Positions 26,650-49,887 of a stretch of DNA of 52,410 nucleotides are shown here, one piece after another. The notes under the pieces are model-generated. The model saw only the letters and a program-made list of their open reading frames with translations. It had not been told where the DNA came from and did no database searches. The position numbers and the translations under genes were made by a program. How positions within the stretch are numbered: the stretch's first letter is position 1; each line of letters opens with the position of its first letter. Source of the stretch: Opitutia bacterium (GTDB lineage Bacteria > Verrucomicrobiota > Verrucomicrobiia > Opitutales > Opitutaceae); contig CANJCM010000025.1 of the NCBI GenBank assembly GCA_947472765.1, positions 1-52,410 of the forward strand. The letters run 5' to 3'.

Positions 26650-26736
26650 GAACAGACTCCACGGTCGCTGATTGCACTCCCGTCCGCAGAATTCGTCGTT
26701 TCGGCTTCCGGCTTCGCCATCTTGAGCACTCCGCGG

Positions 26737-31856: not shown

Positions 31857-31869
31857 GCTGTTCGACCAA

Positions 31870-33315: not shown

Positions 33316-34277
33316 CGCCCCCTCCCGCGCTGGTTAGTATTCTCGTACCCTGTTACAACGCGCAGCGCTGGCTCGCTGCCACGCTCGAGTCGGCACTCGG
33401 CCAGACCTGGCCACGGTGCGAGATCATCGTCGTGGATGACGGCTCGCGGGACGGCAGCCTCGCGCTCGCGCGGCAATTCGAGTCGCGAGGCGTGAAGGTC
33501 ATCGCCCAGGCCAACGCCGGGGCCGCCGCGGCCCGCAATACCGCCCTGCGTGCCGCCCGGGGAGATTATCTCCAGTTCCTCGATGCGGACGACCTGATCG
33601 CTCCAGACAAAATCACCCGCCAGATGCAGCGTCTGGCCGGCGGCCCTCCCGGCGCGATCGCCAGCAGTGCGTGGGCCCGCTTTCAATTGGATCCGCTCGA
33701 GGCGGATTTCCGTCCGGAGCCGGCCTGGCGGGATTTTCCGGTGGCGGTCGATTTCCTCCGGCTGCATTTCAACGAGGGCTGGATGATGTTTCCCGCCGCC
33801 TGGCTCGTCCCGCGATCCGTCGCCGAGGCCGCCGGGCCATGGGACACCCGCCTCTCGCTCAATGACGATGGGGAATATTTCTGCCGCGTGATCGTCGCGG
33901 CGAGCGCGATCCTCTTTTGCGGAGACGCCCGCAGCTTTTACCGATCCGGCATGCCTGGAAGCCTGAGCTGGCGGAAGGACGCGGCGGCATATCGATCGCT
34001 CGTCCTCTCGATCGAACTCAACACCGCCACCCTGTTTCGCCACGCCGACACGCCCGCCACCCGCGAGGCACTGGCCAACGCGTGGAACAAGCTCGCCCAC
34101 GAGATCTACCCCACGCTGCCGGCGGAGTCCCGCCGCGCCCTGCAGCGGTGCCGCGAATTCGGCGGACCGACCCGGCCGGTCGAGATGGGCGCCCGGCTCC
34201 AGCGGTGGAGTAATCTGATCGGATGGCGGCTCGCGAAGCGGCTGCAACAGTTCCTTCGTGCCCGCGGGGCTTCGTGA
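33312..34277 (+). CDS. Glycosyltransferase family 2
   Basis: 321 residues, a textbook GT2: LVSILVPCYNAQRWLAATLE at the start, CEIIVVDDGSRDGSL, KVIAQANAGAAAARNTALRA and the DxD block YLQFLDADDLIAPDKI near residue 95. SLNDDGEYFCRVIVAA near 185 supplies the catalytic acidic residues. The overlap with the preceding membrane protein (ATGA) and with the next GT4 (GTGA) is tight. Donor unknown. Confidence 0.92.
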   Translation: MTPPPALVSILVPCYNAQRWLAATLESALGQTWPRCEIIVVDDGSRDGSLALARQFESRGVKVIAQANAGAAAARNTALRAARGDYLQFLDADDLIAPDKITRQMQRLAGGPPGAIASSAWARFQLDPLEADFRPEPAWRDFPVAVDFLRLHFNEGWMMFPAAWLVPRSVAEAAGPWDTRLSLNDDGEYFCRVIVAASAILFCGDARSFYRSGMPGSLSWRKDAAAYRSLVLSIELNTATLFRHADTPATREALANAWNKLAHEIYPTLPAESRRALQRCREFGGPTRPVEMGARLQRWSNLIGWRLAKRLQQFLRARGAS

Positions 34278-35497
34278 GCACCATGCCCTCGCGAATTCTC
34301 ATCCTCACCAACGGCCACCTCTGTCGCAATCCGCGCGTCGTGAAGGAAGCCTCTACGCTCGGCCGCGCCGGCTACGAGGTCCGCGTGCTCCACGTCCAGA
34401 CGAGTTCCGAATTCGAGGCGCTCGACGCCGACCTCGCCAGGTCTGCCCCGTTTCAACGCGAGGCCATCGATCTACGACCCCACGCCGGCGCCGCGCCGTT
34501 CGCCCGACGGTTGCGTCACTGGCTGGCGCGGGAAGCGTGTGCCCGCTGGGGACTGGCCTCCGCCGGAGCACTCGGACCCGCGGGTTCCCTCTGGCGCCGC
34601 GCCCGCGCCTGGCCGGCCGATCTGACAATCGTGCACAACGAAGTAGCGCACGCCGTCGGCCTTCGACTCCAGCGATCCGGCCGGCGGGTGGCGGCCGACA
34701 TCGAGGACTGGCATTCGGAAGATCTGCTCCCGGCGGATCGCGCCCGCCGGCCGTTGGCGCTGCTGCGCCGGAACGAACGGGAATTGCTTCACCGCTGCGT
34801 GCACACCACGACGACTTCGCACGCCCTGGCCGACGGACTGTTTGCGCGGTACGGCGGCCGCCCGCCTGAGGTCATTACCAATTCGTTTCCGCTCCAGCCT
34901 TTGACCGGGTCCCTGCAGCCCGCCACGCCGCCCCGGCTGTTCTGGTTCTCCCAAACGATCGGGCCGGGACGAGGCCTCGAAGAATTTTTTGCCGGCTGGC
35001 AACTCTGCCGTCAGCCAAGCGAGGTGGTTCTGCTCGGCGCAATCGCGCCGGGCTATGAAGCCGTCTTGCTGGGTTCGCTGCCCCCAGATCGGCGGGCCCG
35101 GGTCCGCATGCGCCCGCTCGTGCCGCCCGCGGCACTGCCGGACGCGATCGCCGGGCACGACCTCGGGCTCGCGCTGGAGCAGTCGTTCATCGTAAATCGC
35201 GACCTCACGATCACGAACAAGATTCTCCAATACCTAAACGCGGGGCTGGCCATCGTGGCGAGCAACACGGCCGGACAGCGGGAGGTGCTGGCCGCCGGGC
35301 CCGCCGCCGGACTGATCGTTTCGCTCGATCAGCCCGCGCTCTTCGCAAGCACGCTTGATGCGATTCTGGTCAACCGCGACGCGCTTGCCGCCTCCCGACG
35401 GGCCGCCCGCCGTCTCGCCGAGGACATCTATTGCTGGGAACGCGAGGAACCGCGTCTGCTCGCGCTCGTCGCCAGGGCTCTGACCGACCGCGCCTGA
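34274..35497 (+). CDS. Glycosyltransferase family 4-like
   Basis: 407 residues, GT-B fold. ILILTNGHLCRNPRVVKEAS at the start is typical of a common bacterial GT4 group; DLTIVHNEVAHAVGLRLQ gives the acceptor-side domain, and LFWFSQTIGPGRGLEEFF opens the donor domain. NKILQYLNAGLAIVASNTAG near 325 replaces the classical E-x7-E region with the form seen in weaker GT4s. GTG at 34274 overlaps the GT2 stop; an ATG three codons later is an equal choice. Confidence 0.85.
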   Translation: MSTMPSRILILTNGHLCRNPRVVKEASTLGRAGYEVRVLHVQTSSEFEALDADLARSAPFQREAIDLRPHAGAAPFARRLRHWLAREACARWGLASAGALGPAGSLWRRARAWPADLTIVHNEVAHAVGLRLQRSGRRVAADIEDWHSEDLLPADRARRPLALLRRNERELLHRCVHTTTTSHALADGLFARYGGRPPEVITNSFPLQPLTGSLQPATPPRLFWFSQTIGPGRGLEEFFAGWQLCRQPSEVVLLGAIAPGYEAVLLGSLPPDRRARVRMRPLVPPAALPDAIAGHDLGLALEQSFIVNRDLTITNKILQYLNAGLAIVASNTAGQREVLAAGPAAGLIVSLDQPALFASTLDAILVNRDALAASRRAARRLAEDIYCWEREEPRLLALVARALTDRA

Positions 35498-35505
35498 CCA
35501 TCCCC

Positions 35506-36852
35506 GTGGATCGCGCCCTCCTCCCAGTTTTACCGGCATCCCCACGTCGTCGCGTGCTGATCGTCACACCGAACTTTCCGCCGATCAACGCGCCGGACAT
35601 GCAGCGCGCCCGCCAGGCCCTGCCCTTCCTGCGCGAGCACGGCTGGGAGCCGGTGGTCCTCGCCGTCACGCCCGAGTCATCCGGGACGGGGGTATTCGAG
35701 CCATTGCTCGAGGAAACCTACCCGGCCGACATCAAGATTGTCCGCGTGCAGGGTATCCTGCCGCAGCGCACGCGGCGGTTCGGTCTCGGCAGCCTCTGGT
35801 GGCGGTGCGGACGGGCGCTGCGTGAAGCCGGCGATCAGTTACTCGCGGCGGAGCCTTTCGACCTCGTTTTTTTCACCACGACCCAGTTCGACGCCTTCAC
35901 CCTCGGACCGAGGTGGCGGCGAAAGTTCGGCGTGCCCTACGTGCTCGACTATCAGGATCCGTGGATCAACCCGTACTATCGGGAGACCGGGACCCGCCCG
36001 CCCGGCGGCTGGCTGAAGTTTGGAATCACCCAATGGTTCGCGGCCCGCCGCGAGCCGGCGGTGGTGCGGCAGGCCGCGGCAATTGTCACGGTGTCGGACG
36101 GGTACGCCCGCTCGCTGGCCGACTCGTACCGGGGCGGCGATCGCGCCGGAATCACCCTTCTGCCCTTTGGCGTGTCCGAAGCTGATTTCGCCGTGGCCGC
36201 GCGCCATCGTCCGAAACAGCCCCTGATCGATTTCTCGGACGGCAACCTTCATCAGGTGTACATCGGGCGCGCCGGGCACGACATGGATTTCGCACTCGGC
36301 GTGCTCTTTCGGGCCTTTCGCCGGTTTCTCGAGACCGATCCCGCCCGCGCCCGGCGGATGCGGTTTCACTTCATTGGCACCGACTATTCGCCTCCGCCGC
36401 AGGGACGGGACTGGGTCAAGCCGATCGCAGTCACCGAGGGCGTGGCCGAATACGTGCACGAACATCGGGCCCGCGTCGCCTATTTCGACGCCTTGCACTA
36501 CCTGCTCCAGGCGCAGGCGCTGGTCGTCGTGGGCTCGATCGACCCGACGTATACCGCGTCCAAGCTGTTCCCCTATCTGCTGGCCCGGCGGCCAACGCTG
36601 CTGCTGTTCCATGCTGAAAGCGCAGTCCTGGATTTCGCGCAGCGAATCGACGCCGGCCACCGTTTCGCCTTCGCGGGAACCGGGGACGCCGATCGGCTGG
36701 TAACGGAGATTCACGACCGGTGGTTCGCGGGGAGCGGCCACGCGGCGGCGCGCCCCGTCGGACCGGAGGCCCTGCAGCCCTTCTCCGCCGAATCCCTCAC
36801 CGCCCGCTTGACGAAGGTCTTCGACGCCGCCTGTAAGTCTTCCCCGACCTGA
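35506..36852 (+). CDS. Glycosyltransferase family 4-like
   Basis: 448 residues. VLIVTPNFPPINAPDMQRAR at about residue 15, LREHGWEPVVLAV, LVFFTTTQFDAFTLG and PYVLDYQDPWINPYYR are standard for a GT4 group common in polysaccharide loci. AIVTVSDGYARSLADSY ends the N-domain. The C-domain (VYIGRAGHDMDFALGVLFRAF, TASKLFPYLLARRPTLLLF) is less conserved. I placed the start at GTG 35506, 8 bases after the previous stop, because an upstream frame would overlap the preceding gene heavily. Confidence 0.85.
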   Translation: MDRALLPVLPASPRRRVLIVTPNFPPINAPDMQRARQALPFLREHGWEPVVLAVTPESSGTGVFEPLLEETYPADIKIVRVQGILPQRTRRFGLGSLWWRCGRALREAGDQLLAAEPFDLVFFTTTQFDAFTLGPRWRRKFGVPYVLDYQDPWINPYYRETGTRPPGGWLKFGITQWFAARREPAVVRQAAAIVTVSDGYARSLADSYRGGDRAGITLLPFGVSEADFAVAARHRPKQPLIDFSDGNLHQVYIGRAGHDMDFALGVLFRAFRRFLETDPARARRMRFHFIGTDYSPPPQGRDWVKPIAVTEGVAEYVHEHRARVAYFDALHYLLQAQALVVVGSIDPTYTASKLFPYLLARRPTLLLFHAESAVLDFAQRIDAGHRFAFAGTGDADRLVTEIHDRWFAGSGHAAARPVGPEALQPFSAESLTARLTKVFDAACKSSPT

Positions 36853-38291
36853 TGGACACACGAACGAGCGCCGATGACGGCATGGCGGTGCCTGATCCGC
36901 ACACGAGCCGGCAATTGTACCGGATCGGTCTGGGTGCGCTGGTCGCCGCGAGCGTCGGGCTGGTGTACAAGTCCAGCGTCGCGGACCCGCTCCTGCTGTC
37001 CATCGGGGTGGTCTCCATGTTCTTCGCCGCGCTCCCGGCGCTGAATTGGGCGCGGCGCGGCGACCTGCATTTTCCCGTGTTCGAGATGTTCATGCTCACG
37101 AGCATCCCGTTCTACTCCGTCCCGCTGCTGGCCGGACACCCCGAAGTCCTGCGTTTCTCCGACAGCGCCACCTATCAGGCGGGCATCGCGCTCCTCTTGT
37201 TTCAACTGGCCGCCGGCATTACCTTTTTTTCCACGCGCGCGGGTCCCATTCGCTCGCGCCGGCTCACGGTATCGCTTCTCCCCAGCTCAGCGCTGCGCTA
37301 CGCGCAAACCGGACTCTGGCTGAACACGGCTTATCTCTACGCCTATGCCTTCCTGGACATCATCCCGTACGAATTCATCACGATGTCGCGGGCGATATTC
37401 TTCGGCATCGGCACCGTCTCGTTGTTTATCGAGATGCGCCGCTGGGGGGCAGGCGAACTTCCGCCGACTGCCAAACTCGCCGTCGTCTTCAACGTCCTGT
37501 TCCAGCTCATCATCCTCTTCCGCTCGCTCTACCTGATCGTCGGTATTTCGGTGCTGCTCCTCGCCTTGATCGGGTACGTTTCAACGAGCCGCCGCATCCC
37601 CGTCCTGGCGATCGGGGTGATGCTGCCGCTGCTGGCCGTCCTGCATACCGGCAAGACCAAGATGCGCATCGAGCACTGGGGCGGTAAGACCACCCAGGCG
37701 ACGGTCTCCGAACTGCCCGAGTTTTTCGAAACCTGGATCCAATACGGCTTATCGCCTCCCGTGGATCAGGAGGACAATAACACCTCGCTTGCCGGTCGCC
37801 TGTTCGAGCGCGCGTCGCTGTTTCAGATGCTCTGCCTCGTGACGGAACACAGCCCGGAGGATGCTCCCTACCTGCTCGGTGAATCCTATCGTTACATCCC
37901 CGCGCAGCTCGTGCCGTCCATCCTCTGGCCGAACAAGCCGTCGTCCCTCCTGAGCAATGAGATGCTCGCGATTCACTTTGGTCTCATCGCAGCTTCCTCG
38001 TCCACCAGCGTCAGCATCGCCTTCGGCATGATCGCGGAATCCTATGCAAATTTCGGACTCCTCGGGTGCGTGCTGCTCGGAGTCGTGCTGGGCTACGGGT
38101 ACAAGCGGCTGAGCATCGCCGCACTCGGGCAGCCGCAATTTTCCGCCGTGGGGTTGATTACCATCCTGCTCGCGGCCTGGAGCTTTCAGGTGGAACAGAT
38201 TTTCGCGACCTGGCTGATCTCGATGATTCAGGCCGGCTTTGTCGTCATCGGCGTCCCGATGGCTTTCCGGATTTTCTTCGGCAACGACTGA
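36852..38291 (+). CDS. O-antigen polymerase-like membrane protein (Wzy-like)
   Basis: 479 residues with about ten to twelve hydrophobic segments and a long soluble loop near the middle (GKTKMRIEHWGG to QEDNNTSLAGRLFERASLF). That layout, with the late GESYRYIPAQLVPSILWPNKP and IAESYANFGLLGCVLLGVVLG blocks, is characteristic of Wzy-type oligosaccharide repeat-unit polymerases. Wzy sequences diverge greatly, so the call rests on topology and these late motifs. It would polymerise repeat units in the periplasm, which is unexpected beside an ABC exporter. Start ATG shares one base with the previous stop. Confidence 0.72.
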   Translation: MDTRTSADDGMAVPDPHTSRQLYRIGLGALVAASVGLVYKSSVADPLLLSIGVVSMFFAALPALNWARRGDLHFPVFEMFMLTSIPFYSVPLLAGHPEVLRFSDSATYQAGIALLLFQLAAGITFFSTRAGPIRSRRLTVSLLPSSALRYAQTGLWLNTAYLYAYAFLDIIPYEFITMSRAIFFGIGTVSLFIEMRRWGAGELPPTAKLAVVFNVLFQLIILFRSLYLIVGISVLLLALIGYVSTSRRIPVLAIGVMLPLLAVLHTGKTKMRIEHWGGKTTQATVSELPEFFETWIQYGLSPPVDQEDNNTSLAGRLFERASLFQMLCLVTEHSPEDAPYLLGESYRYIPAQLVPSILWPNKPSSLLSNEMLAIHFGLIAASSSTSVSIAFGMIAESYANFGLLGCVLLGVVLGYGYKRLSIAALGQPQFSAVGLITILLAAWSFQVEQIFATWLISMIQAGFVVIGVPMAFRIFFGND

Positions 38292-39496
38292 TGCCTTCCG
38301 CCCCGCCGCTCCGTCTCGCCGTCGTGCTCTCGCATCCGACGCAGTACTACAGCCCGTGGTTTCGCTGGGTGCAGGCGGAAACGAAGCTCCAGCTCCGGGT
38401 CTTTTATCTGTGGGACTTCGGGATCTCCGCCCAGCGGGATCCAAAGTTCCAGACGACGTTTCGCTGGGACGTCGATCTGCTCTCCGGCTACGAGTCCGAG
38501 TTCGTCCCAAACGTGGCCCGCGACCGGGGCACGCATCACATCCGGGGTTTGAACAACCCGGAGATCACCGCGCGACTCGCAGCGTGGGGACCGTCGGCCG
38601 TGCTGATGTTTGGCTACAAGTCGGTCACGCATCTTCGGGTGCTGGCTTGGGCGCGGCGAAAGTCCGTGCCGCTCCATTTTCGCGGCGATTCCCACCTGCT
38701 GGGCCGCGGTGCGCTGCCGCCCGCCACGCGGCTCGTGCTGCGACTTCTCTTCCGGCAATTCGCGGCTTTTCTCCCGGTGGGCGCCGCCAATCGCGCCTAC
38801 TTCACCGCGCTCGGCGTGCCGGAGCGAAAGCTCTTCCTCGCGCCGCATGCGGTCAACGCCGCGCACTTCGACCCAACCCGCCCCGCGGATCGCGCCGCGG
38901 CCGAACAGCTGCGCCGCGACCTCGGCCTCGGGTCGAAGACCCGCGTCGTGCTCTTTGCCGGCAAACTCGTGCCGGAAAAGCAACCGGCGGAACTGCTCAC
39001 GGCATTCATTACTCTCGCGCAGCCGGAAACCGCGCTCGTCTTCGTGGGCGAGGGACCGGAAAAGGATCGGCTGATCCAGATCGCCCGCGCCGCGCCCGGC
39101 CCCGGCACGATCCATTTCCTCCCTTTCGCCAACCAGAGCGAAATGCCTTCGCGTTATCTGCTCGCCGATCTCTTCGTGCTGCCCTCGCGTGGCCACTATG
39201 AGACGTGGGGACTCGCCGTGAATGAAGCGATGCACATGGGAGTACCGGCGCTCGTCAGCGATCGCGTCGGCTGCCAGGCCGACCTCGTCGAGGCCGGGAA
39301 AACCGGCTGGGTGTTTCGTGCCACCGATTCCCTCGATCTCCAGGCGCAACTCCGCGCCGCCCTCGACTGCCTCGCCGACCCGGCCCAAGCCGCCCTGCTC
39401 CGGAAGCGCGTCCAGGCGCGAATCGCCGGCTACACTTACACTCACGCCACCTCGGGACTTCTCGCCGCGCTTTCGTCCGTGGGACCCCCGCCATGA
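38291..39496 (+). CDS. Glycosyltransferase family 4
   Basis: 401 residues, GT-B fold. LRLAVVLSHPTQYYSPWFRW at the start marks a known GT4 subgroup. RVVLFAGKLVPEKQPAELL and ALVFVGEGPEKDRLIQIAR open the donor domain, and LFVLPSRGHYETWGLAVNEA followed by MHMGVPALVSDRVGC holds the E-x7-E region (E in HYETWGLAVNEA). It shares one base with the Wzy-like gene and overlaps the next GT4 by ATGA. Confidence 0.92.
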   Translation: MPSAPPLRLAVVLSHPTQYYSPWFRWVQAETKLQLRVFYLWDFGISAQRDPKFQTTFRWDVDLLSGYESEFVPNVARDRGTHHIRGLNNPEITARLAAWGPSAVLMFGYKSVTHLRVLAWARRKSVPLHFRGDSHLLGRGALPPATRLVLRLLFRQFAAFLPVGAANRAYFTALGVPERKLFLAPHAVNAAHFDPTRPADRAAAEQLRRDLGLGSKTRVVLFAGKLVPEKQPAELLTAFITLAQPETALVFVGEGPEKDRLIQIARAAPGPGTIHFLPFANQSEMPSRYLLADLFVLPSRGHYETWGLAVNEAMHMGVPALVSDRVGCQADLVEAGKTGWVFRATDSLDLQAQLRAALDCLADPAQAALLRKRVQARIAGYTYTHATSGLLAALSSVGPPP

Positions 39497-40668
39497 AAAT
39501 CACGATTGTCATGGGCTTCTTTCTGCCGGTTCCGCCGGAGAGCGGCGGCGCCACGGAGAAATCCTGGCATCGCCTGGCCATCGAACTCGCGGCCCGCGGG
39601 CACGAGGTCACGCTGGTCTCGCGGTGCTGGCGGAAGTGGCCGAATCGCGAAACGCTCCAAGGCGTCCGGCACCAGCGACTCCCTGGCTTCGATCATCGCC
39701 GCAAACTCTGGCAAAATCTCCTGCTCGATTTCATCTGGAGCGGCCGGGTGCATCGCCAGCTACCCGCCGCGGACCTCGTCGTCGTTCATGCCGTGACCCT
39801 GCCCGTCTGGCTGGGACGCCTGCGTCCCTCGGCCGGTAAAGTCGTGGTCATGCCCGGCCGGATGCCGAAGGGACAGTATCGCTGGTACCGGCGGATTGCA
39901 CGGGTCCTCGCCACCAGCACGCCGGTCCGCGAGCGCGTACTGGTCGAGAATCCAGCCCTCGATCCCGTGACGCAGATCGTCGGTTATCCCATCGACTGGA
40001 GTCTGCTGTCCCGCGCGCGACCGGCGCGGAGCGGAACGGAGCCAGTCACCATCGGCTTTACTGGTCGGTTGCATCCGGAAAAAGGCGTGGAGCTGCTCGC
40101 CGCCGCGGCGCGGCAACTCGCCACCATGACAAATTTGCCGCCCTGGCGACTCGTGTTATGCGGGCCGGAGGACGTGGCGGCCGGGGGTGCGGGATCGCAA
40201 TTTCGAGTCCAGCTCGAACGGCAGTTCCGAGCCGGACTTCCGGACGGAACCTGGAGCGTGCGGCCTCCGATTTATCGCGAGGATGCACTCGCCGATTTTT
40301 ACCGCACGCTCGATGTCTTCTGCTACCCGAGCCTCGCGGCCCAGGGTGAAACTTTCGGCGTGGCCATCGCAGAAGCCATGGCGGCCGGCGCCGCTCCCGT
40401 GGTGTCGGACCTCGCGTGCTTCCGGGATTTCGTGCGACCCGGGGTGAACGGCCTCGTGTTCGATCACTCGGGCCCCGATGCCGCCATGAAGCTGGCTGAC
40501 GCCCTCGCGACCTTGGTCCGGGACTCTTCACTGCGCCAGGCGCTCGCCGCCGCGGCGCAGGTGGACGTGCAGCGCTACGATTTTCCGCGTTACGCGGAGG
40601 CGCTGCTCGGGGACTTCAAGCGTCTGGTTGGACCGGAGCAATCGTCGCTCCCTGGCGATCCTTCTTGA
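39493..40668 (+). CDS. Glycosyltransferase family 4, last gene of the long run
   Basis: 391 residues, GT-B fold. It begins MKITIVMGFFLPVPPESGGA followed by TEKSWHRLAIELAARGHEVTL, has VTIGFTGRLHPEKGVELLAA near residue 185 and the E-x7-E motif in AQGETFGVAIAEAMAAGAAP near 290. It is the 25th and last plus-strand gene of the run. Its last 53 bases (40616-40668) overlap the end of the minus-strand ligase gene, an antisense 3' overlap. Confidence 0.92.
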   Translation: MKITIVMGFFLPVPPESGGATEKSWHRLAIELAARGHEVTLVSRCWRKWPNRETLQGVRHQRLPGFDHRRKLWQNLLLDFIWSGRVHRQLPAADLVVVHAVTLPVWLGRLRPSAGKVVVMPGRMPKGQYRWYRRIARVLATSTPVRERVLVENPALDPVTQIVGYPIDWSLLSRARPARSGTEPVTIGFTGRLHPEKGVELLAAAARQLATMTNLPPWRLVLCGPEDVAAGGAGSQFRVQLERQFRAGLPDGTWSVRPPIYREDALADFYRTLDVFCYPSLAAQGETFGVAIAEAMAAGAAPVVSDLACFRDFVRPGVNGLVFDHSGPDAAMKLADALATLVRDSSLRQALAAAAQVDVQRYDFPRYAEALLGDFKRLVGPEQSSLPGDPS

Positions 40669-42028
40669 ACCGGCCGCTGACCGCGATGGCGGCCACGCGC
40701 CGGACCCGGCTCGGGATCTTGAACGCGGCCAGCCGATCCCGGCAGAACAACCGGACCGCGCGCTGAAGTTCGAGATCGGTCACGGCTGCGGCGGTCACGA
40801 CATCCGCGACGACGCGCTGACCGGTAATCGCATTCGCCTCGCCACGCACCGCACAATCGACGACGCCCGGCATCTCGAGGAGCGTCGATTCAACCTCCGC
40901 GGGGAAAACCTTCTGCCCGCCGACGTTGATGATCTCGCTGCGCCGGCCGCGAATTCGCAGATAGCCGTCGGCGCCTTCCTCGACCAGATCGCCGGTGCGG
41001 AACCAACCGTCGGGCGTGAATTGATCCGCGGGACGATCGAGGTAGCCGAGAATCCGCGTCTGGCTGCGGACCCAGAGTTCGCCTTCCACGATGCGGGTCT
41101 CCACCCCGGGATCCTCGATTTTCATCCAGGTGCTGTCGGAGGATTTGCTGACCGTCCGATAAATCCCCGTCTCGCTGGTGCCGAAGGTCTGGAGAAATTT
41201 CACGCCACCTAGCTCGGTCTTCAGCCGCGTGAGCAGGTGCGCGGGCATCGGCTCCGTGCCGTAGGTGATAATCCGCAGCGACGACAGGTCGTGGCGGCGA
41301 TGGGCCTCACCAGCGAGAATGAGGTTCAGAAACGTCGGCGAGGTCGGAAGCACATTGACACTGTGCGCCGCGATGAGCTGGCAAACCTCATCCGGATCGC
41401 GGGTCGTCGGAATGACGAGGCACGCCCCGGTGGCGAGACCGCCGAAGAGCGTGTTCAATCCGCCGATGTGATCGAAAAGCAGAAACGCCAGAAGGCGGAG
41501 CTTTTTTTCGCGTTTCTCCCGATGCGGCTCGGTGAGCTGATCGAGATCGTGGACCATCGCCTTCGGCTTGCCCGTGCTGCCACTGCTGAAAAGCACGAGT
41601 CCGGGAGCGCCGGCGGTTCGCAGCGCGGCGTAGAGAACCGGATTTTCGCCCGCCGGTAACACGGTCAGCGCGGCGTCCTCGCGGCCCACGGCGACCTTCC
41701 AACTGGCCCCGGCGCCCGCAATCAAGGTCGCTTCTTCCACGGCGGCCCCCGGCGTCACCGGAATTGCGATCGCGGCCCGCTCCATCAGCGCGAGCAGCCA
41801 AGCCACGCCCGCGAGGCTGTAGTCGCCAGCGATCACCACGCCCTCGCCGGGCTTGATCCCGGCAGTATCGATCTGAGTCAGAGCCGCGCGAATCGCGGTC
41901 GACAGTTCAGCGTAGGAGTACGTGCGGCCGGCGAGGATCAGGAAAGGCCGGTCACCGAAGCCGGCGATCCGCTCCACCAGCCAGTGCCGGTAGGCGCCAC
42001 TCGGCACAGCCTGCCCGGACTCAGCCAT
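40616..42028 (-). CDS. AMP-dependent acyl-CoA/acyl-ACP ligase
   Basis: 470 residues of the ANL adenylate-forming family. The P-loop-like A3 motif is LVLFSSGSTGKPKAMVHD near residue 150, A5 is ITYGTEPMPAHLL, A7 is GWFRTGDLVEEGADGYL and A8 is IRGRRSEIINVGGQKVFP; near the C-terminus SGRFKKDRQG carries the probable catalytic Lys. It activates a carboxylic acid as an adenylate and passes it to a thiol. As the neighbours are an ACP and an SDR, the acceptor is probably that ACP. The acid is unknown. It is the third gene of the minus-strand cassette and overlaps the SDR by 8 bases. Confidence 0.88.
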   Translation of the reverse strand: MAESGQAVPSGAYRHWLVERIAGFGDRPFLILAGRTYSYAELSTAIRAALTQIDTAGIKPGEGVVIAGDYSLAGVAWLLALMERAAIAIPVTPGAAVEEATLIAGAGASWKVAVGREDAALTVLPAGENPVLYAALRTAGAPGLVLFSSGSTGKPKAMVHDLDQLTEPHREKREKKLRLLAFLLFDHIGGLNTLFGGLATGACLVIPTTRDPDEVCQLIAAHSVNVLPTSPTFLNLILAGEAHRRHDLSSLRIITYGTEPMPAHLLTRLKTELGGVKFLQTFGTSETGIYRTVSKSSDSTWMKIEDPGVETRIVEGELWVRSQTRILGYLDRPADQFTPDGWFRTGDLVEEGADGYLRIRGRRSEIINVGGQKVFPAEVESTLLEMPGVVDCAVRGEANAITGQRVVADVVTAAAVTDLELQRAVRLFCRDRLAAFKIPSRVRRVAAIAVSGRFKKDRQGATIAPVQPDA

Positions 42029-42725
42029 CCACGCCTCCGAGATAGATGATCTGGCCCGTGACGAACCGGTTGTCTGGCGCGATGAAGAAGTCCACGACGC
42101 GGATCAAATCGGCGACTTCGCCGGTGCGCTTGATCGCCTGACGCGCGACGAGAGAGGCGATCTTGGCCTTCGGCACGACGCCAATAAGGTCGGTGTCGAT
42201 CGGCGTCGGCCCGACGGCGTTGACCATCACGCCCGCCCCGCCAAGTTCGCGCGCCGCCACGCGGGTCAGCGTCTCGACCGCGCTCTTGCTCGCGGCATAG
42301 ACCGCCTCGCCCTCGAGACTGAGCGGCACGGCGACGGTGGAAAAATTCACGATCCAGCCCTGCCCGCGCCGGGCCATCAGTTTCCCGGCCTCGCGCAGGC
42401 AATGAAAAGTGCCGAGAAAGTTCGTCGCCATCACGCGCCGGGCCGTCTCGCCGGGCGTGAGCAGCACGTGGTTCATCGCGGCGATCCCCGCGTTGTTCAG
42501 GAGCACATCAATCCCGCCCCGCGTGCGGGCGATGTCCCGGAACATGTGCACAATCGCGTTCTCGTCCGTCACATCGACGAGGTGATGCCGATAGTTTTCG
42601 TGACGCAGCGTCGACTCCTGCCGGCTGCATCCATCCACGGTGCAGCCGAGGGCGAGGTAGTGTTCGCACAGACTGCGGCCGAGCCCCTTGCGGGTCCCCG
42701 TAATCACCACGCTCCGTGCCTTCAT
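42021..42725 (-). CDS. Short-chain dehydrogenase/reductase (FabG-like)
   Basis: 234 residues with a classical SDR layout: VVITGTRKGLGRSLCEHYLA binds NAD(P)H, DVLLNNAGIAAMNHV is the structural motif, and VNFSTVAVP to VYAASKSAVETL contains the catalytic Ser and Tyr-x3-Lys. VNAVGPTPIDTDL and the final GGVDG are typical of FabG-type 3-oxoacyl-ACP reductases. Flanked by an ACP and a ligase, it probably reduces an ACP-bound 3-keto group. It overlaps the ACP gene by 4 bases. Confidence 0.9.
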   Translation of the reverse strand: MKARSVVITGTRKGLGRSLCEHYLALGCTVDGCSRQESTLRHENYRHHLVDVTDENAIVHMFRDIARTRGGIDVLLNNAGIAAMNHVLLTPGETARRVMATNFLGTFHCLREAGKLMARRGQGWIVNFSTVAVPLSLEGEAVYAASKSAVETLTRVAARELGGAGVMVNAVGPTPIDTDLIGVVPKAKIASLVARQAIKRTGEVADLIRVVDFFIAPDNRFVTGQIIYLGGVDG

Positions 42726-43024
42726 TGCGGCTTCGCCAGCCGGGCTTCCACGTAATCGATCAGGGTCGCCACCCGCCGGAAGGGTGAGCGGGCTTCGCTG
42801 GCTGCCGCGTCATCCGCAAGCGTCACGTCACGACCAAAAATTTCGAAGACCCCCAATTCCACGTCGGCGATAAGGTTGACGAGGTTCAAGCTGTCGAGAC
42901 CGGACTTCTCACCGTAGAGCCGGGTCTCAAGCGTCGCCTGACGGAGCAGGTCGTTGTTCGTGCTCTCGCCGGTTGCGCGGACGGCGCGCAGGACGATTTC
43001 AGTGATCTGCTCCTTGGGCGTCAT
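42722..43024 (-). CDS. Acyl carrier protein
   Basis: A 100-residue acidic, helical protein. The phosphopantetheine site is GLDSLNLVNLIADVELG near residue 40, where Ser carries the prosthetic group. It is a little longer than FabD/FabF-associated ACPs (about 78 residues). GGAG at -5 on the minus strand gives a good ribosome binding site for ATG 43024. It is the first gene of the ACP-SDR-ligase cassette and diverges from the acetyltransferase gene, 114 bases away, so both promoters lie in 43025-43138. Confidence 0.88.
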   Translation of the reverse strand: MTPKEQITEIVLRAVRATGESTNNDLLRQATLETRLYGEKSGLDSLNLVNLIADVELGVFEIFGRDVTLADDAAASEARSPFRRVATLIDYVEARLAKPQ

Positions 43025-43138
43025 GCTCCATCTTTGGCCGCGAGGGGGATCGCCTCACAAGGAGAAAAGCCTGTCGTTACGCAATCTCCGCGATTGCCAG
43101 TGTGCGCCCGCCGCGGATGCTGACGAGGCCGAGACCCG
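43025..43138. promoter_or_regulatory. Divergent promoter region between ACP and acetyltransferase genes
   Basis: The only intergenic stretch between the inverted cassette and the resumed cluster, so it must carry the start signals of both units. I see no clear -35/-10 pair. An ACAAGGAGAAAAG stretch lies at 43058-43070. Confidence 0.35.
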
Positions 43139-43711
43139 TTGAATTCGAATTCACCAGAACGCCCCTACCTGGGCATGGGCTGTACCAGTCCCTACCCGCG
43201 CCGCGAGACGTTGATGCGCTGGGTCTGGCTGTTCGTCGAGATGACCGTCTTCCGCTGGAGCCCGCGTCCGTGCCATGCCTGGCGTGCCCGGCTGTTGCGG
43301 TGGTTTGGCGCCCGGATCGATCGCGTCGACGAGGTCGTGGTGTTCCCCACGGTGTCGGTGCACTTCCCGTGGAAGCTCACGCTCGAGTCGCGCAGCATGC
43401 TCGGCCCCTACGTTCGCGTCTACAACATCGCTCCCATCCATCTCGGTTTCGGCGCCAACGTCAGCCAGTACAGCTACCTCTGCGCGGGCGGCCACGACTA
43501 TACGCAGTGGAGCCTCCCGACCACGTTCGGACCAATCACGATCGGCCCCAATGCCTGGGTTGCCGCCGATGTCTTCGTCGGCCCGGGCGTGGAGATAGGC
43601 GAACTTGCGATCATCGGCGCCCGATCGGTGGTCATAACGAGCATGCCGGCCCGCAAGATTTGCCTCGGGCACCCCTGCCGTCCGATTAAGGACCGACCGG
43701 AGCCCGCATGA
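43139..43711 (+). CDS. WcaF-like hexapeptide-repeat acetyltransferase
   Basis: 190 residues with the left-handed beta-helix pattern: hydrophobic residues every sixth position in ITIGPNAWVAADVFVGPGVE and IGELAIIGARSVV near residues 130-165, preceded by CAGGHDYTQWSLPTTFGPI, whose His is the likely catalytic base. The N-terminal SPYPRRETLMRWVWL is typical of WcaF (colanic acid) type O-acetyltransferases. It would acetylate a sugar with acetyl-CoA. TTG 43139 has GAGG 10 bases upstream; ATG 43175 is an alternative giving a slightly shorter protein. It overlaps the next GT4 by ATGA. Confidence 0.88.
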   Translation: MNSNSPERPYLGMGCTSPYPRRETLMRWVWLFVEMTVFRWSPRPCHAWRARLLRWFGARIDRVDEVVVFPTVSVHFPWKLTLESRSMLGPYVRVYNIAPIHLGFGANVSQYSYLCAGGHDYTQWSLPTTFGPITIGPNAWVAADVFVGPGVEIGELAIIGARSVVITSMPARKICLGHPCRPIKDRPEPA

Positions 43712-44832
43712 GAGTCGCCCACCTCATCGCCAGCCTGGAGGCACGCTACGGCGGACCAAGCCGCTCCGTTCGGCAGCTCGCGCTCGCGACCGCGGGCGCC
43801 GGGCATGACGTGGAGATTCTCACCTCCGCCCCCGCGGCTCAGCCCGACGAGGTGGTGGGACGACTCCGGATCCGAACCTGGCGCCGCGGCTGGCCGGAGG
43901 CCGTTTGCCCCATCCCGGAGCTGCCGCGCCAGCTGCGCGCCGGCAGCTTCGACGTCGTCCATCACCACGGTCTCTGGCTGCGCACGCTGCACTATGCCCA
44001 CCGCAAGAGTGCGCGTGACGGCATCCCACTGGTTCTGTCGCCGCGGGGCATGATGAGCGCTTGGGCTTGGCGGCGGCAGCGATTCAAGAAGCAACTCGCC
44101 GCTCGTTTCATCCATCCCGGCGCTTTCTCGGCCGTCCACGGCTGGCACGCCACGAGCCATGAGGAGGTCGAGGAAATCCGCGACCTCGGCTTCCGCCAGC
44201 CCGCGTGCGTGGCACCGAACGGCGTCAATCCCCCAACTGACGCCGAAATATCCGCCGCCCGGGCGCATTGGGAGGCCGCGGTGCCCGCGACCGTGACCAC
44301 GCGCGTCGCCCTGTTTCACAGCCGGCTCCATCCGAAGAAGCGGGTGATCGAGCTGATCGATTTGTGGGCCGCGCTCGCCCCAGCCGGCTGGACGCTCTTG
44401 ATCGTCGGCATCCCCGAGCAGTACAGCGTCGCCCAACTGCGCGCCTACGTGATGCGGGCCCGGGGCACCACCCAGATCGAGGTCTTCGACGGCTCAGAGC
44501 AGCCGGCCCCGTACGCAATCGCGTCGCTCTTCCTGCTGCCATCGCACACGGAGAACTTCGGTCTGGTGATTGCGGAGGCCATGGCCCACGGGATTCCCGT
44601 GGTCGTGACGGACACCACGCCCTGGCGGCAGGTCAACGAGCCCAATCTCGGCTGGTGCGTCCCCTGGTCCGAGTTTCCCGCCGCCGTCCAGGCGGCGGTG
44701 CAAGCCGAACCGGAGGCGCTGCGGCAGCGCGGGCGTCGGGCGCGTGACTGGGTGCTCCGCGACTTTTCGTGGGCGCGATCGGCGGCGGACCTCGTCGCCT
44801 TCTATACCAGCCTGCAGGGAGGCTCGAAATGA
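43708..44832 (+). CDS. Glycosyltransferase family 4
   Basis: 374 residues, GT-B fold. MRVAHLIASLEARYGGPSRS opens the protein with a standard glycine-rich loop. The region LVLSPRGMMSAWAWRRQRFKK, typical of a well-known GT4 subgroup, is near residue 110, and SHTENFGLVIAEAMAHGIPV near 285 holds the E-x7-E motif. VALFHSRLHPKKRVIELI starts the donor domain. It overlaps both neighbours by ATGA. Confidence 0.93.
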   Translation: MRVAHLIASLEARYGGPSRSVRQLALATAGAGHDVEILTSAPAAQPDEVVGRLRIRTWRRGWPEAVCPIPELPRQLRAGSFDVVHHHGLWLRTLHYAHRKSARDGIPLVLSPRGMMSAWAWRRQRFKKQLAARFIHPGAFSAVHGWHATSHEEVEEIRDLGFRQPACVAPNGVNPPTDAEISAARAHWEAAVPATVTTRVALFHSRLHPKKRVIELIDLWAALAPAGWTLLIVGIPEQYSVAQLRAYVMRARGTTQIEVFDGSEQPAPYAIASLFLLPSHTENFGLVIAEAMAHGIPVVVTDTTPWRQVNEPNLGWCVPWSEFPAAVQAAVQAEPEALRQRGRRARDWVLRDFSWARSAADLVAFYTSLQGGSK

Positions 44833-46346
44833 GCTCGCGATTCCGTCGCAGCCAGTCGTCCGACCCAATCAAATACGCCCCCGGCGTCGGCGCGCGGGTC
44901 CCGCCGGGCCACCGCCCCCTCGGCGTACTTGAATGGCTGGCCTTGCTGCATGCCGGCATCTTCCTCTTCTGGCTGACTTGGGCTTTCGGTGGCGGATCCG
45001 AGGCCATGCGCCCCAAACTCGCCTGGTACGGAATCCTCGGGCTCCTCATCACGCTCACCGCGCTGCAGGATCGCGAGGCTTGGCGCGACGGCTGGATGCG
45101 CCCCCTGATCTGGCTCTGGCCGCTGCTCGCGTTCAACGCAGTCGTCCTGATCGGCTGCCTGAACCCGAGTTTCCGCGAAGTCAGGATCGAGGGTGATCTT
45201 GTCCTGATTCCGAACGCCGTCGTGAGCTGGTTACCCAGCTCGGCCCGCCCTGGCCTCGCGCTGCCGGCGCTGTGGATGTTCAACGCGCTCTGGATTCCGG
45301 CCTTCAACCTCGTCCTGCTCGTTCGCCAGCGCCGCGCCCTCCGCGGCTTCCTGCTTTTCGCGCTGGCCAACGCCCTCGCCCTCTCCGTCTTCGGGACCGC
45401 CCAGAAGCTGCTCAACTCACCGGGAATCTTCTTCGGCGCGGTCAAAAGCCCGCAAAAATATTTCTTCTCCACGTTCATCTACCACAATCATTGGGGCGCG
45501 TTCATTCTCCTCATGATCGCAGCCGGCCTCGGACTCGTCTGGCACCACGCCCGCCGGCATGAGGCCCGGAACTTCTTCCACTCGCTCGCGTTCGCCGGGC
45601 TCGTCGCCCTGCTCTTTCTCGCGGTGACGCTCCCGCTGTCCGGTTCGCGTTCTTCAACCTTGCTGGGTGCCGGCCTGTTCGGGGCCGCCTTGATTCACTG
45701 GCTGTACCGTTTCGTGCGGGATCGCCGGCGCCACCGGGAGTCCGTGATCCTGCCGCTCACCGGCGCGTTGGCCGCCTTGATCCTCGCCGCCGCGGGGATC
45801 TGGTACGTGGCGCGGGACACCATCTCGGCGCGCGCCACCCTCACCCGCGAGCAGGTCGCCGCGATGGTGCTCAAAGGTAACATCGGAAGCCGCTCGTCGC
45901 TTTACCACGACACCTGGCGGATGGCGAAGGACAAGCTGTGGTTCGGCTGGGGCATGACGTCGTACCCGCATGTCTTCACGCTCTACAACCAGCAGCGCTC
46001 GGTGGATCGGTTGCCCGCCTTCTATCGCGACGCCCACAGCGACTGGCTGCAGTCGTTCGCCGAACACGGACTGGTCGGGTCCGCCCTGCTCGGCCTCTGC
46101 GCGGTTGTTCCCCTGCTCCGTCTGCGTCGTCGGCATCTCAGCAATCCGCTGACCGCTTACCTGCTGGCGGGCTGCGCGGTGTTGCTGCTCTACGCCTGGG
46201 TGGAGTTCCCTTTCGGCAACCTGGCGGTCGTCTTCTCCTGGTGGCTTGCCTGCTTCTCGGCCGTCCAATACGCCCGGCTCCACGATCGCGAGGCGCCCGC
46301 GCCCACCAAGGCAGCGGGATTTTCGGCGCCGACTCCGTCGCCGTGA
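44829..46346 (+). CDS. O-antigen ligase/polymerase-like membrane protein (WaaL/Wzy_C family)
   Basis: 505 residues with about ten to twelve hydrophobic segments. The long periplasmic loop and the diagnostic H-x-D motif RDAHSDWLQSFAEHGLVGSA (near residue 415) mark the Wzy_C/O-antigen ligase superfamily; FFSTFIYHNHWGAFILLMIA near 220 is a second landmark. Such proteins ligate glycans to lipid A-core, to other acceptors, or polymerise repeat units. It is the second Wzy-superfamily candidate in the cluster, and which is polymerase and which ligase cannot be decided by sequence reading. ATG 44829 overlaps the previous stop. Confidence 0.85.
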   Translation: MSSRFRRSQSSDPIKYAPGVGARVPPGHRPLGVLEWLALLHAGIFLFWLTWAFGGGSEAMRPKLAWYGILGLLITLTALQDREAWRDGWMRPLIWLWPLLAFNAVVLIGCLNPSFREVRIEGDLVLIPNAVVSWLPSSARPGLALPALWMFNALWIPAFNLVLLVRQRRALRGFLLFALANALALSVFGTAQKLLNSPGIFFGAVKSPQKYFFSTFIYHNHWGAFILLMIAAGLGLVWHHARRHEARNFFHSLAFAGLVALLFLAVTLPLSGSRSSTLLGAGLFGAALIHWLYRFVRDRRRHRESVILPLTGALAALILAAAGIWYVARDTISARATLTREQVAAMVLKGNIGSRSSLYHDTWRMAKDKLWFGWGMTSYPHVFTLYNQQRSVDRLPAFYRDAHSDWLQSFAEHGLVGSALLGLCAVVPLLRLRRRHLSNPLTAYLLAGCAVLLLYAWVEFPFGNLAVVFSWWLACFSAVQYARLHDREAPAPTKAAGFSAPTPSP

Positions 46347-47188
46347 CCACCACGCCGACAGTTCCGGTCCACCCGCCGGGCTATTCCGTCGTGGTACTGA
46401 CGCTCAACGAGGAACGCGACCTGCCTGCCTGTCTCGGTTCCCTGCAAGGCTGCAACGATGTCGTCGTCCTCGACTCGGGATCGACCGATGGCACGGCCGC
46501 CCTCGCGCGCGCCGCCGGGGCGCGGGTCTTCGTTCGCGCCTTCGACAATTTCGCCGGCCAGCGCAACCACGCCCAACGCGAGATTCCATTCCGCCATCCC
46601 TGGGTCTTCCATCTCGACGCGGACGAGCGCATGACGCCGGAACTCGACGCCGAGTGCCGCGCAGCCTCGAACCGGACGGACGTCGATGGCTTCTATGTCG
46701 CGCCGCGGATGCTCTGGGCCGGGCACTGGATTCGCCGCAGCACCGACTTCCCCGCGTGGCAGGCCCGCTTCGTGCGGGCTCCGAAGTTCGAATTCATCGA
46801 GGTGGGACACGGTCAGCGTGAGGCGCCCGGCATGCGGCTGGATCGGCTGCAGGCAAATTACCTTCACGACCTTTCCTCGGGTGGCGAAGCCGAGTGGCTC
46901 GATCGCCACCGCCGTTACGCCCGGGCCGAAGCCCGTCATCTGGTCGCGAGCGGTCCCGTGCGGGACTGGCACCGGATCTTCTCCCGTGATCCGCTGCTCC
47001 GCCGCCGGGCCCTCAAGCGCATTAGCTACGTCCTGCCCGGCCGCCCGCTCCTCCGTTTTCTTTACCAATACCTGCTCCGGGGCGGTTTCCTCGACGGACC
47101 CGCGGGCCTGCACTACTGCCGGTTGCTCGCACAGTATGAACGCTTCACCAGCGCCGAACTGAAGCAGCTTCGCGCCCAATCCCGGTAA
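46343..47188 (+). CDS. Glycosyltransferase family 2 (WaaE/KdtX-like)
   Basis: 281 residues, GT-A fold. YSVVVLTLNEERDLPACLGS near residue 13, DVVVLDSGSTDGT and HPWVFHLDADERM with the DxD metal site near 90. FYVAPRMLWAGHWIRRSTDF and the C-terminal LRGGFLDGPAGLHY are characteristic of the WaaE/KdtX-type beta-1,4-glucosyltransferase group that extends LPS inner core. GTG at 46343 overlaps the ligase stop. The acceptor may be a repeat unit here. Confidence 0.9.
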   Translation: MTTTPTVPVHPPGYSVVVLTLNEERDLPACLGSLQGCNDVVVLDSGSTDGTAALARAAGARVFVRAFDNFAGQRNHAQREIPFRHPWVFHLDADERMTPELDAECRAASNRTDVDGFYVAPRMLWAGHWIRRSTDFPAWQARFVRAPKFEFIEVGHGQREAPGMRLDRLQANYLHDLSSGGEAEWLDRHRRYARAEARHLVASGPVRDWHRIFSRDPLLRRRALKRISYVLPGRPLLRFLYQYLLRGGFLDGPAGLHYCRLLAQYERFTSAELKQLRAQSR

Positions 47189-47190
47189 GC

Positions 47191-48417
47191 ATGCGGCTCA
47201 TTTTCCTCAACCGCTTCTACTGGCCCGAAACTCCGGCGACCGCCCAGCTCCTCACCGATTTGGCCGAGGGCCTCGCCGCCGCCGGCCACACGGTCTCCGT
47301 CATCGCGAGTCGCGGCGCCGGAACGCTCCCCGCCCGGGAGACCCACGAGTCCGTCGAAATTCTTCGCGTTCGCGGCACCCGCTGCTCCGGCCTCGGACTG
47401 CCCGGCAAGGCGGTGGATTTTGCGACTTTTTACCTGGGCGCCCTGTGGCGGTTGGGGGCCACCCTCAGGCGTGGCGACATTCTCATCGTGCTCACGGACC
47501 CGCCGCTGATCGGTCTCGGCGCCGGCGCCGTGGCGCGACTCCGCGGGGCGGACGTTGTTCATTGGGTACAGGATATTTACCCCGAACTCGCCATCGCCCT
47601 CGCCCGCCAGTCCTGGCTCAGGTTGTTGCGGCCATTGCGCAATCGCGCCTGGCGACGCGCGCAAGCGTGCGTGACCCTCGGCACGGACATGGCGTCCGTC
47701 CTCGCCAAGGCCGGAGTGCCCGCGGCCCGGCAGGCGATCATTCCCAACTGGCCCCCGGCCGGCCTCGCCCCGGCGGACGCCGGAGCCATCGCGCGAGTCC
47801 GGGCCGCTTGGGGCGTCGCGGATAAGTTCGTCGTGGGCTACTCTGGCAATCTCGGTCGCGTCCACGATCTCCAGAGTGTGCTCGCGTTGGCCGATGCGTT
47901 CCGGGCCGATCCGGGCGTGGCGTTTGTCCTCGTGGGCCACGGTCCCCAACGCGCCTGGCTGGAAGCGGAAGTGCGAGCTCGCGGGCTGGACAATGTAACT
48001 TTTCAAGCCGCCCGAACGCGCGAGGAACTCCCCGCCTCGCTCGCTGCCGCCGACGTCCAACTCGTCACGCTGCAGGCTGGATGTGAGCAACTGGTTTTTC
48101 CGAGCAAGCTCTACGGTATCGCCGCCGTCGGTCGGCCGGTGGCGTTTATCGGCCCGGCCGACTGCGAGGTGGCGCGACTGGTCCGCGAGCATGAACTCGG
48201 GTTGGCAGCCGCCGCCGATCGCATCGACCAGATGGTAGCGGCCCTGCGGCAACTCCAGCGGGACCCCATCCGCGTGAGCCATCATGCCACGGCGGCCTTG
48301 CGCTTCGCCACCTCGCATGACGCCGCCCACGCCCTGGCGCGCTGGCAAACTCTGCTCCAGGGGTTGCACGCTTGCGGCTTTGGCGCCGGGCGGGGTAAAG
48401 ACTCTCCCTCTGCATGA
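47191..48417 (+). CDS. Glycosyltransferase family 4 (WcaI/WbuB-like)
   Basis: 408 residues, GT-B fold. RLIFLNRFYWPETPATAQLL at the start and VVHWVQDIYPELAIAL near residue 120 are the hallmarks of the WcaI/WbuB group, whose members add the second sugar in several capsules and O-antigens. FVVGYSGNLGRVHDLQSVLA and ADVQLVTLQAGCEQLVFPSK mark the donor domain. It lies two bases after the GT2 and overlaps the initiating phosphoglycosyl transferase gene by ATGA, a pairing seen widely and consistent with adding the second sugar. Confidence 0.92.
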   Translation: MRLIFLNRFYWPETPATAQLLTDLAEGLAAAGHTVSVIASRGAGTLPARETHESVEILRVRGTRCSGLGLPGKAVDFATFYLGALWRLGATLRRGDILIVLTDPPLIGLGAGAVARLRGADVVHWVQDIYPELAIALARQSWLRLLRPLRNRAWRRAQACVTLGTDMASVLAKAGVPAARQAIIPNWPPAGLAPADAGAIARVRAAWGVADKFVVGYSGNLGRVHDLQSVLALADAFRADPGVAFVLVGHGPQRAWLEAEVRARGLDNVTFQAARTREELPASLAAADVQLVTLQAGCEQLVFPSKLYGIAAVGRPVAFIGPADCEVARLVREHELGLAAAADRIDQMVAALRQLQRDPIRVSHHATAALRFATSHDAAHALARWQTLLQGLHACGFGAGRGKDSPSA

Positions 48418-49787: not shown

Positions 49788-49875
49788 GGGTGGGTTGGGT
49801 TTTGGGTGTTGGGTTCTGAGTTCGGAGTTTGCGGTCGGAGATTTGAGTTTCCTGTTTTGAGTTTCGGGTTCACCA
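49787..49875 (+). repeat. G-rich heptad repeat with G-quadruplex pattern
   Basis: The stop codon of the phosphoglycosyl transferase gene runs directly into G-tracts at 49787-49790, 49792-49794, 49797-49799, 49804-49806 and 49811-49813, five tracts within 27 bases and loops of 1-4 bases. The following sequence keeps a seven-base period (GTTTTGG, GTGTTGG, GTTCTGA, GTTCGGA, GTTTGCG, a six-base unit, then GATTTGA, GTTTCCT, GTTTTGA, GTTTCGG). No gene is present in this stretch. Confidence 0.7.
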
Positions 49876-49887
49876 GCTTGCGGTGAG

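Follow-up and report, generated by a model that had tools for sequence, protein, structure and literature searches.

A stretch of 52,410 nucleotides (nt) from an Opitutia bacterium of the family Opitutaceae (assembly GCA_947472765.1, contig CANJCM010000025.1; hereafter the window) was analyzed for a three-gene cassette encoding an acyl carrier protein (ACP), a short-chain dehydrogenase/reductase (SDR), and an AMP-dependent acid ligase. The trio lies on the minus strand, within a polysaccharide operon on the plus strand that includes glycosyltransferases of the GT2 and GT4 families. The genes and regions concerned are as follows.

42722-43024, minus strand: ACP gene, an open reading frame (ORF) of 100 amino acids (aa) with a predicted phosphopantetheine site at Ser45 (DSL), leading the cassette.
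42021-42725, minus strand: FabG-like SDR gene, a 234-aa ORF with a match to Pfam adh_short_C2 and SDR motifs.
40616-42028, minus strand: AMP-dependent acid ligase gene, a 470-aa ORF with matches to Pfam AMP-binding and AMP-binding_C and adenylation motifs.
43025-43138: divergent intergenic region of 114 nt, from the ACP gene to the wcaF-like gene.
39493-40668, plus strand: GT4 glycosyltransferase gene, whose 3' end forms the left border of the insertion described below.
33312-51321, plus strand: polysaccharide operon conserved in the family (GT2, GT4s, WcaF-like, Wzy_C, Bac_transf phosphoglycosyltransferase, pyridine nucleotide-disulphide oxidoreductase).

The three genes are tightly packed: the ACP and SDR ORFs overlap by 4 nt (ATGA) and the SDR and ligase ORFs by 8 nt on the minus strand, and the 3' end of the ligase gene overlaps convergently by 53 nt with the GT4 gene. 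The genes flanking the trio on both sides are oriented opposite to it. The GC content at third codon positions (0.77-0.85 in all three genes) is of the coding type by codon position, and the arrangement is not a product of chance, since 16 further Verrucomicrobiota loci have homologues arranged in this order. An earlier note on this DNA had described an overlapped ACP, SDR, and AMP-ligase set running against its neighbors; this description is borne out by the ORFs, by the Pfam matches of the SDR and the ligase, and by the motif, profile, and model of the ACP. A scan of positions 40500-43300, including the intergenic region, returned no sigma-70-like or promoter-like site.

Searches of Pfam, NCBIfam, and, with the single sequence, PDB gave no match for the 100-aa ACP. 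Its DSL motif occupies residues 44-46, with D44 and S45 invariant across 16 aligned ACP sequences, and the profile of these 16 sequences matched carrier proteins, including 2lki (E = 6e-4) and, at about 0.01, D-alanyl carrier proteins (E = 0.009). With E values allowed up to 1, eight of the 16 matched PP-binding (best 0.0029), while the window ACP itself had no PP-binding match even at that threshold. In the AlphaFold2 model of the window ACP (pLDDT 86.8), Ser45 starts a helix spanning residues 45-63, and a Foldseek search with the model returned ACPs as its top matches (best E = 0.039, none at E <= 0.001). From the conserved D44 and S45, the profile, the weak PP-binding matches, and the structural model, the protein is predicted to be a carrier protein.

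The SDR matched adh_short_C2 (E = 6.2e-41) and carries TGxxxGxG at residue 9, NNAG at 77, a Ser-Tyr-Lys signature from 129, and YLGG near the C-terminus. Its assignment as a plain FabG was rejected, as FabG models were matched well below their cut-offs. The SDR is the best conserved member of the trio, being 46-59% identical to the SDRs of other complete trios, compared with 40-52% for the ligase and 33-47% for the ACP within the phylum. The ligase matched AMP-binding (1.6e-37) and AMP-binding_C (9.2e-12) and contains the motifs A3 (SSGSTGKPK), A5 (FGTSE), A7 (RTGD), A8, and an A10-like lysine motif (RFKK).

Among named enzymes, the ligase was closest to TmlQ of the thiomarinol plasmid pTML1, whose three relevant genes we take to be TmlQ, TmlS, and TacpD. 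The two ligases share 36% identity over 447 aa (E = 1e-95, 287 bits), and three other ligases of the window's own genome scored well below this, at 89-109 bits. Identities to TmlQ and to Burkholderia and Bradyrhizobium ligases adjoining polyketide synthase (PKS) genes ranged from 36 to 46%. In a first tree, which included five long outgroups, the trio ligases and the outgroups were not separated. Once the longest of the outgroups and part of the ingroup had been removed, a 100/100 branch split 23 trio and PKS-linked ligases from two of these three other ligases of the window genome; one ligase divided over two reading segments (locus L034) was excluded from the trees. The window ligase therefore appears, from identity and tree, to group with TmlQ-type polyketide-starter ligases, a relationship absent from the earlier note. 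The A5 motif reads FGTSE in the window ligase and most of those from Verrucomicrobiota, and YG[LM]SE in TmlQ (YGMSE) and the PKS-linked ligases. As a separator of PKS-linked from glycan-linked ligases this motif was rejected, as it follows clade, with YGLSE also found in loci L128 and L174 beside hexapeptide genes. A pattern scan found no viral relatives of the ligase. Unlike the ligase, the SDR showed no special proximity to the thiomarinol set: it is 27.6% identical to TmlS and 27.5% identical to a FabG-like SDR of another Verrucomicrobiota locus (L065), and represents a subfamily distinct from TmlS.

The history of the insertion site was traced through the GT4 gene. A search of 61 genomes of the family found it in 28 places. 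With the window set aside, 24 genomes contributed 27 loci, some of them fetched as short stretches. The operon was kept around GT4 in 19 of the 27. The wcaF gene followed GT4 directly on the 3' side in 16 of these 19 syntenic loci, with 3-104 base pairs (bp) between the aligned ends; in the other three, GT4 was followed by GT4_437 (two loci) or a Wzy gene (one locus). The trio was found in none of the 27 loci within the stretches fetched, and the window genome was the only carrier from its own family among the ACP-positive and SDR-positive genomes. Insertion is the simplest reading, because 2.4 kb in inverse orientation separate GT4 from wcaF in the window genome alone. The trio is thus best read as a cassette inserted into a conserved operon, a feature that the earlier note did not contain.

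An origin from a mobile element was considered and rejected. No transposase was present among the 46 window ORFs scanned (the set to which the negative statements on gene content of the window below also refer), and no direct repeat joining the insertion borders was found; the only pair at the borders was a weak inverted one, 77% identical over 22 nt, within the ligase and ACP genes. The GC content of the trio (0.62-0.66) falls inside the range of the other measured window genes (0.62-0.69). Elsewhere in the locus, long ORFs without a Pfam match occur at 29905-33315 and 36852-38291. Relatives in the family keep the latter at 25-49% identity, and its product may be a flippase or an additional polymerase.

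Across 288 genomes of the phylum the ACP of the trio was found in 15, and across 384 genomes of the class its SDR was found in 18 (E <= 1e-40), the window genome being counted in both. Twenty-two Verrucomicrobiota loci were fetched on ACP or SDR matches, and the complete ACP-SDR-ligase order was found in 16 of them. The six incomplete loci comprised two at contig ends (L040, L041), two with the ACP only (L042, L043), one with an SDR lacking the ligase (L065), and L069, which encodes SDR and ligase, with no ACP found and one in-frame TGA in the SDR match.

The gene context of these loci was dominated by glycan and acyl-transfer functions. The 61 trio-adjacent genes matched Bac_transf (seven), Glyco_transf_4 (five), Epimerase_2 (UDP-GlcNAc 2-epimerase; four), Hexapep (four), ACP_syn_III (3-ketoacyl-ACP synthase III, KAS III; four), and MBOAT (two); these counts are among 25 of 81 families listed, and single matches may be hidden. 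None of these families occurred among 25 of 122 families listed for 60 control genes, where response regulators and CheW had three matches each and other families one or two. The controls came from 12 regions of the same genomes, picked by hand by coordinate and not at random. Profiles of glycosyltransferases and phosphoglycosyltransferases derived from the window matched 13 of the 22 loci fetched, made up of L043 and 12 of the 16 complete trios, compared with one of the 12 controls. An acyltransferase or glycan gene was found in 16 of 17 loci with a trio or SDR-ligase pair and in one of 12 controls; the queries for this count came partly from trio loci and favor them, and the window-only profiles and Pfam scans are the fairer measure. 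The possibility raised in the earlier note that the trio might occur mostly away from glycan loci does not hold in Verrucomicrobiota, given the 12 complete trio loci with such transferase matches.

Several recurrent arrangements were observed. A small phosphoglycosyltransferase directly precedes the ACP in seven loci (L032, L034, L035, L036, L062, L063, and L064), the last of which goes on to KAS III, another ACP, another SDR, and a transferase of the PglD type. PglD-type transferases were found in L030, L031, L033, L037, L063, L064, and L066-L068, and the combination of KAS III, second ACP, and PglD-type transferase near the trio in seven of the 16 complete loci (L030, L031, L033, L064, and L066-L068). 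Upstream of the ACP, L038 and L039 carry an MBOAT gene, which is immediately adjacent in L039. In L038 an AlgX-type gene precedes the MBOAT, giving an AlgX-MBOAT-TIR-ACP-SDR-ligase run in which a TIR-domain protein (L038:3067-3636) stands between MBOAT and ACP. A similar run with repeated AlgX and ACP copies was observed in L041. In the close relatives L030 and L031, the ligase gene is followed on its own strand by accB- and accC-like genes (L030:5916-7772 and L031:5880-7708), an arrangement that would fit malonyl-CoA as the ligase substrate and lends it weak support. Additionally, a 384-aa protein without a Pfam match (L032:8064-9218) occurs near the small phosphoglycosyltransferase and the trio, and its cluster was found in six loci.

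Relatives of the ligase also occur in Pseudomonadota: among 398 genomes six had a match at E <= 1e-55, and in one class, where 303 genomes were searched, 11 had a match at E <= 1e-30, with the search-centre genome counted in each. Among 13 loci (L009, L070, L128-L132, and L174-L179), acyltransferase-like genes were found in eight, glycan genes in five, and either in ten, again with biased queries. For example, hexapeptide and Acyl_transf_3 genes directly follow the ligase in L128, and a GNAT gene adjoins it in L130 and L132, the latter also with a polysaccharide-biosynthesis gene (Polysacc_synt_2) after the ligase. L177 also carries a PKS-like gene. On the conjugative plasmid of Rhizobium T1470 (L070:12043-17696), genes for an ACP, a GNAT-like protein, an SDR, a ligase, a PglD-like protein, and a CmlS-type halogenase stand in a row; the ligase has the A5 motif of the window clade, and the row possibly yields a halogenated acyl product.

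We consider it reasonably probable that the trio is a self-contained acyl-donor module within the polysaccharide operon, providing acyl-ACP for glycan acylation. Supply of acyl-ACP fits the data because acyl transfer, with varied transferases, is the common factor across the contexts. From the predicted functions we infer a route in which the ligase would adenylate either a small carboxylic acid or an acyl-CoA at its free carboxyl and load it onto the phosphopantetheine of the ACP. The SDR would then reduce a carbonyl of the ACP-bound group, most likely giving a hydroxyacyl-ACP, and one of the operon's acyltransferases would transfer the acyl group onto the glycan, the WcaF-like protein being the likeliest and two Acyl_transf_3 proteins the alternatives. 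A hydroxyacyl-ACP may be the product by analogy with the 3-hydroxypropionate starter made by MupQ, MupS, and MacpD. The candidate transferases are as follows.

43139-43711, plus strand: WcaF-like hexapeptide O-acyltransferase gene, with a TTG start that fits its relatives, the ancestral neighbor of GT4 and 114 nt from the ACP gene.
18993-20159, plus strand: Acyl_transf_3 membrane acyltransferase gene, an alternative user of the acyl group.
26722-27897, plus strand: Acyl_transf_3 membrane acyltransferase gene, a further alternative.

The window WcaF was the most divergent copy (rank 1 of 16), with a mean identity of 0.61 compared with 0.71, while the window copies of the other seven operon genes ranked 4, 13, 4, 10, 8, 10, and 9 from the lowest. 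This ranking covered eight operon genes in 12 to 16 genomes, the gene at 49888-51321 having been dropped with six sequences only. In near-invariant WcaF columns, 11 changes were specific to the window, compared with ten in L109, eight in L112, and zero to four in the other 13. One of the window changes, T/S118 to G, occurs in no other of the 18 sequences compared, E. coli WcaF being one of them, and lies beside the conserved His119, which is presumably catalytic. These features are suggestive only, and point to the adjacent WcaF-like protein as the best candidate acyltransferase. A bolder version, which we regard as rather unlikely, is that a hydroxyacyl-ACP donor cassette, combining a TmlQ-related ligase with a carrier protein and an SDR of a new subfamily, travels intact from one glycan operon to another and uses the resident acyltransferase. 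In the window genome it would have arrived next to wcaF, and the active-site loop of that WcaF would since have changed so that the enzyme takes hydroxyacyl-ACP in place of acetyl-CoA.

A number of observations weigh against glycan acylation by the trio. The cassette itself holds no acyltransferase, and the ancestral job of WcaF does not need the trio, because wcaF follows GT4 in 16 trio-less relatives; the best named families of the WcaF-like protein are acetyltransferases. Its divergence concerns one gene in one genome, expected by chance in about one of 16 cases for that gene, and the ten private changes of L109 come near to the window's 11. Among the 17 loci with a trio or SDR-ligase pair, no glycan gene was detected in five (L030, L031, L038, L039, and L069) and no acyltransferase in six (L032, L034-L036, L062, and L069), L069 lacking either. 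Three plasmid relatives of the ligase adjoin PKS genes, one of them on pTML1, and the hydroxyacyl analogy is itself strained by an SDR that is not of the TmlS type and by FGTSE in place of YG[LM]SE.

Three other explanations were weighed. The trio could be a starter-unit module for a small secondary metabolite, making a hydroxyacyl-ACP for a synthase of the polyketide or fatty-acid type whose genes lie elsewhere, its position in a glycan operon being accidental. Both the grouping of the ligase with TmlQ and the PKS-linked Burkholderia and Bradyrhizobium ligases and the 3-hydroxypropionyl starter produced by MupQ, MupS, and MacpD (PMC10098928) speak for this reading, which we nevertheless hold to be quite improbable: the SDR is no nearer to TmlS than to a FabG-like SDR, the window encodes no ketosynthase or PKS, and the contexts in the phylum are mostly glycan or acyltransferase genes. 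Extension is another proposal, in which the trio makes a starter for KAS III before transfer, as for viosamine, with the KAS III of the window encoded elsewhere. The seven complete loci with KAS III, second ACP, and PglD-type transferase agree with it, as do vioS, vioR, acp, and vioB of P. syringae (PMC3927599). However, neither KAS III nor a second ACP was found in the window, and none was found in the fetched stretch of nine of the 16 complete trio loci, so that we give this proposal, too, little credence.

Alternatively, the ligase might load an amino acid or an unreduced acid onto the ACP in the manner of the Dlt system, with the SDR acting elsewhere, for example on a sugar. MBOAT genes stand beside carrier-protein genes in dlt operons, and the MBOAT genes upstream of the ACP in L038 and L039 are reminiscent of these, as is the weak match of the ACP profile to D-alanyl carrier proteins. 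In contrast, each of the 16 complete Verrucomicrobiota loci has the SDR gene in the middle, flanked by ACP and ligase, the SDR is the best conserved of the three proteins, and the window contains no MBOAT, which together make a Dlt-like role improbable. The supply of acyl-ACP for glycan acylation remains the reading that we prefer.

The earlier note had called acyl-ACP use by such a minimal set little described, which was an overstatement. The same three annotations occur together in orf1-orf3 (ACP, 3-oxoacyl-ACP reductase, and AMP-dependent synthetase) of the group II polar-flagellin glycosylation island of Aeromonas, with a suggested role in a liposugar component (PMC7874193). There, luxE and luxC are present too, genes that no Pfam match suggests in the window. 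Similarly, Acp, FabG, and CaiC are found with LuxE and LuxC in enterobacterial flagellin islands of about 71 strains, for which liposugar addition has been proposed (PMC4875605). Both are likened to the window by annotation and not by sequence, as ACP, ketoacyl reductase, and acid ligase in glycan loci, and the enterobacterial islands likewise differ by the extra Lux genes. Among the matches listed from the open-licence literature, none named the product of an ACP, SDR, and ligase trio situated in a glycan locus, and nothing on the cassette came from PMC8159325 or from the first 300,000 characters of PMC7024214.

ACP-based glycan acylation is backed by gene deletion in the viosamine island of P. 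syringae, where a dedicated ACP and a reductase are proposed to supply 3-hydroxybutyryl and where deletion of the reductase gene vioR removes the modified sugar (PMC3927599). The window shares a dedicated ACP and a reductase in a glycan locus with this island. In the island, however, KAS III makes the acyl group and no AMP ligase is among the seven genes, whereas the window has the ligase and no KAS III. The O-polysaccharide of Idiomarina abyssalis, with 4-hydroxybutanoyl, is an example of a hydroxyacylated glycan (title cited in PMC7281560).

Relatives of the trio beside differing acyltransferases, together with trio-less sister operons as natural controls, make the question of acyl group and donor directly testable. 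To our knowledge, the donors of many glycan hydroxyacyl groups have not been worked out. In the Dlt system, an AMP ligase (DltA) loads a carrier protein (DltC) that feeds an envelope-polymer acyltransferase (DltB); the window differs in having an SDR, in lacking a DltB-type MBOAT, and in the weak similarity of its carrier protein.

The priming cassettes of mupirocin and thiomarinol, which reportedly use a bis-thioester route, resemble the window in being three-gene sets of ligase, SDR, and ACP with homologous ligases. Membership of the window trio in this group was rejected on the SDR, which is of another subfamily. Further differences are the A5 motif, the gene order (on pTML1 the ligase comes first, the reverse of the window), the carrier protein (111 aa in Tml compared with 100 aa and a shorter C-terminus in the window), and the setting, as the window trio lies in a glycan locus without a neighboring ketosynthase (KS-AT MmpF/TmpF or PKS). 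MupQ, MupS, and MacpD form the 3-hydroxypropionate starter (3-hydroxypropionyl-ACP) from malonyl-CoA, and thiomarinol uses 4-hydroxybutanoyl (PMC10098928). A portable three-gene donor module of the kind proposed here would link this antibiotic starter-unit chemistry to glycan decoration.

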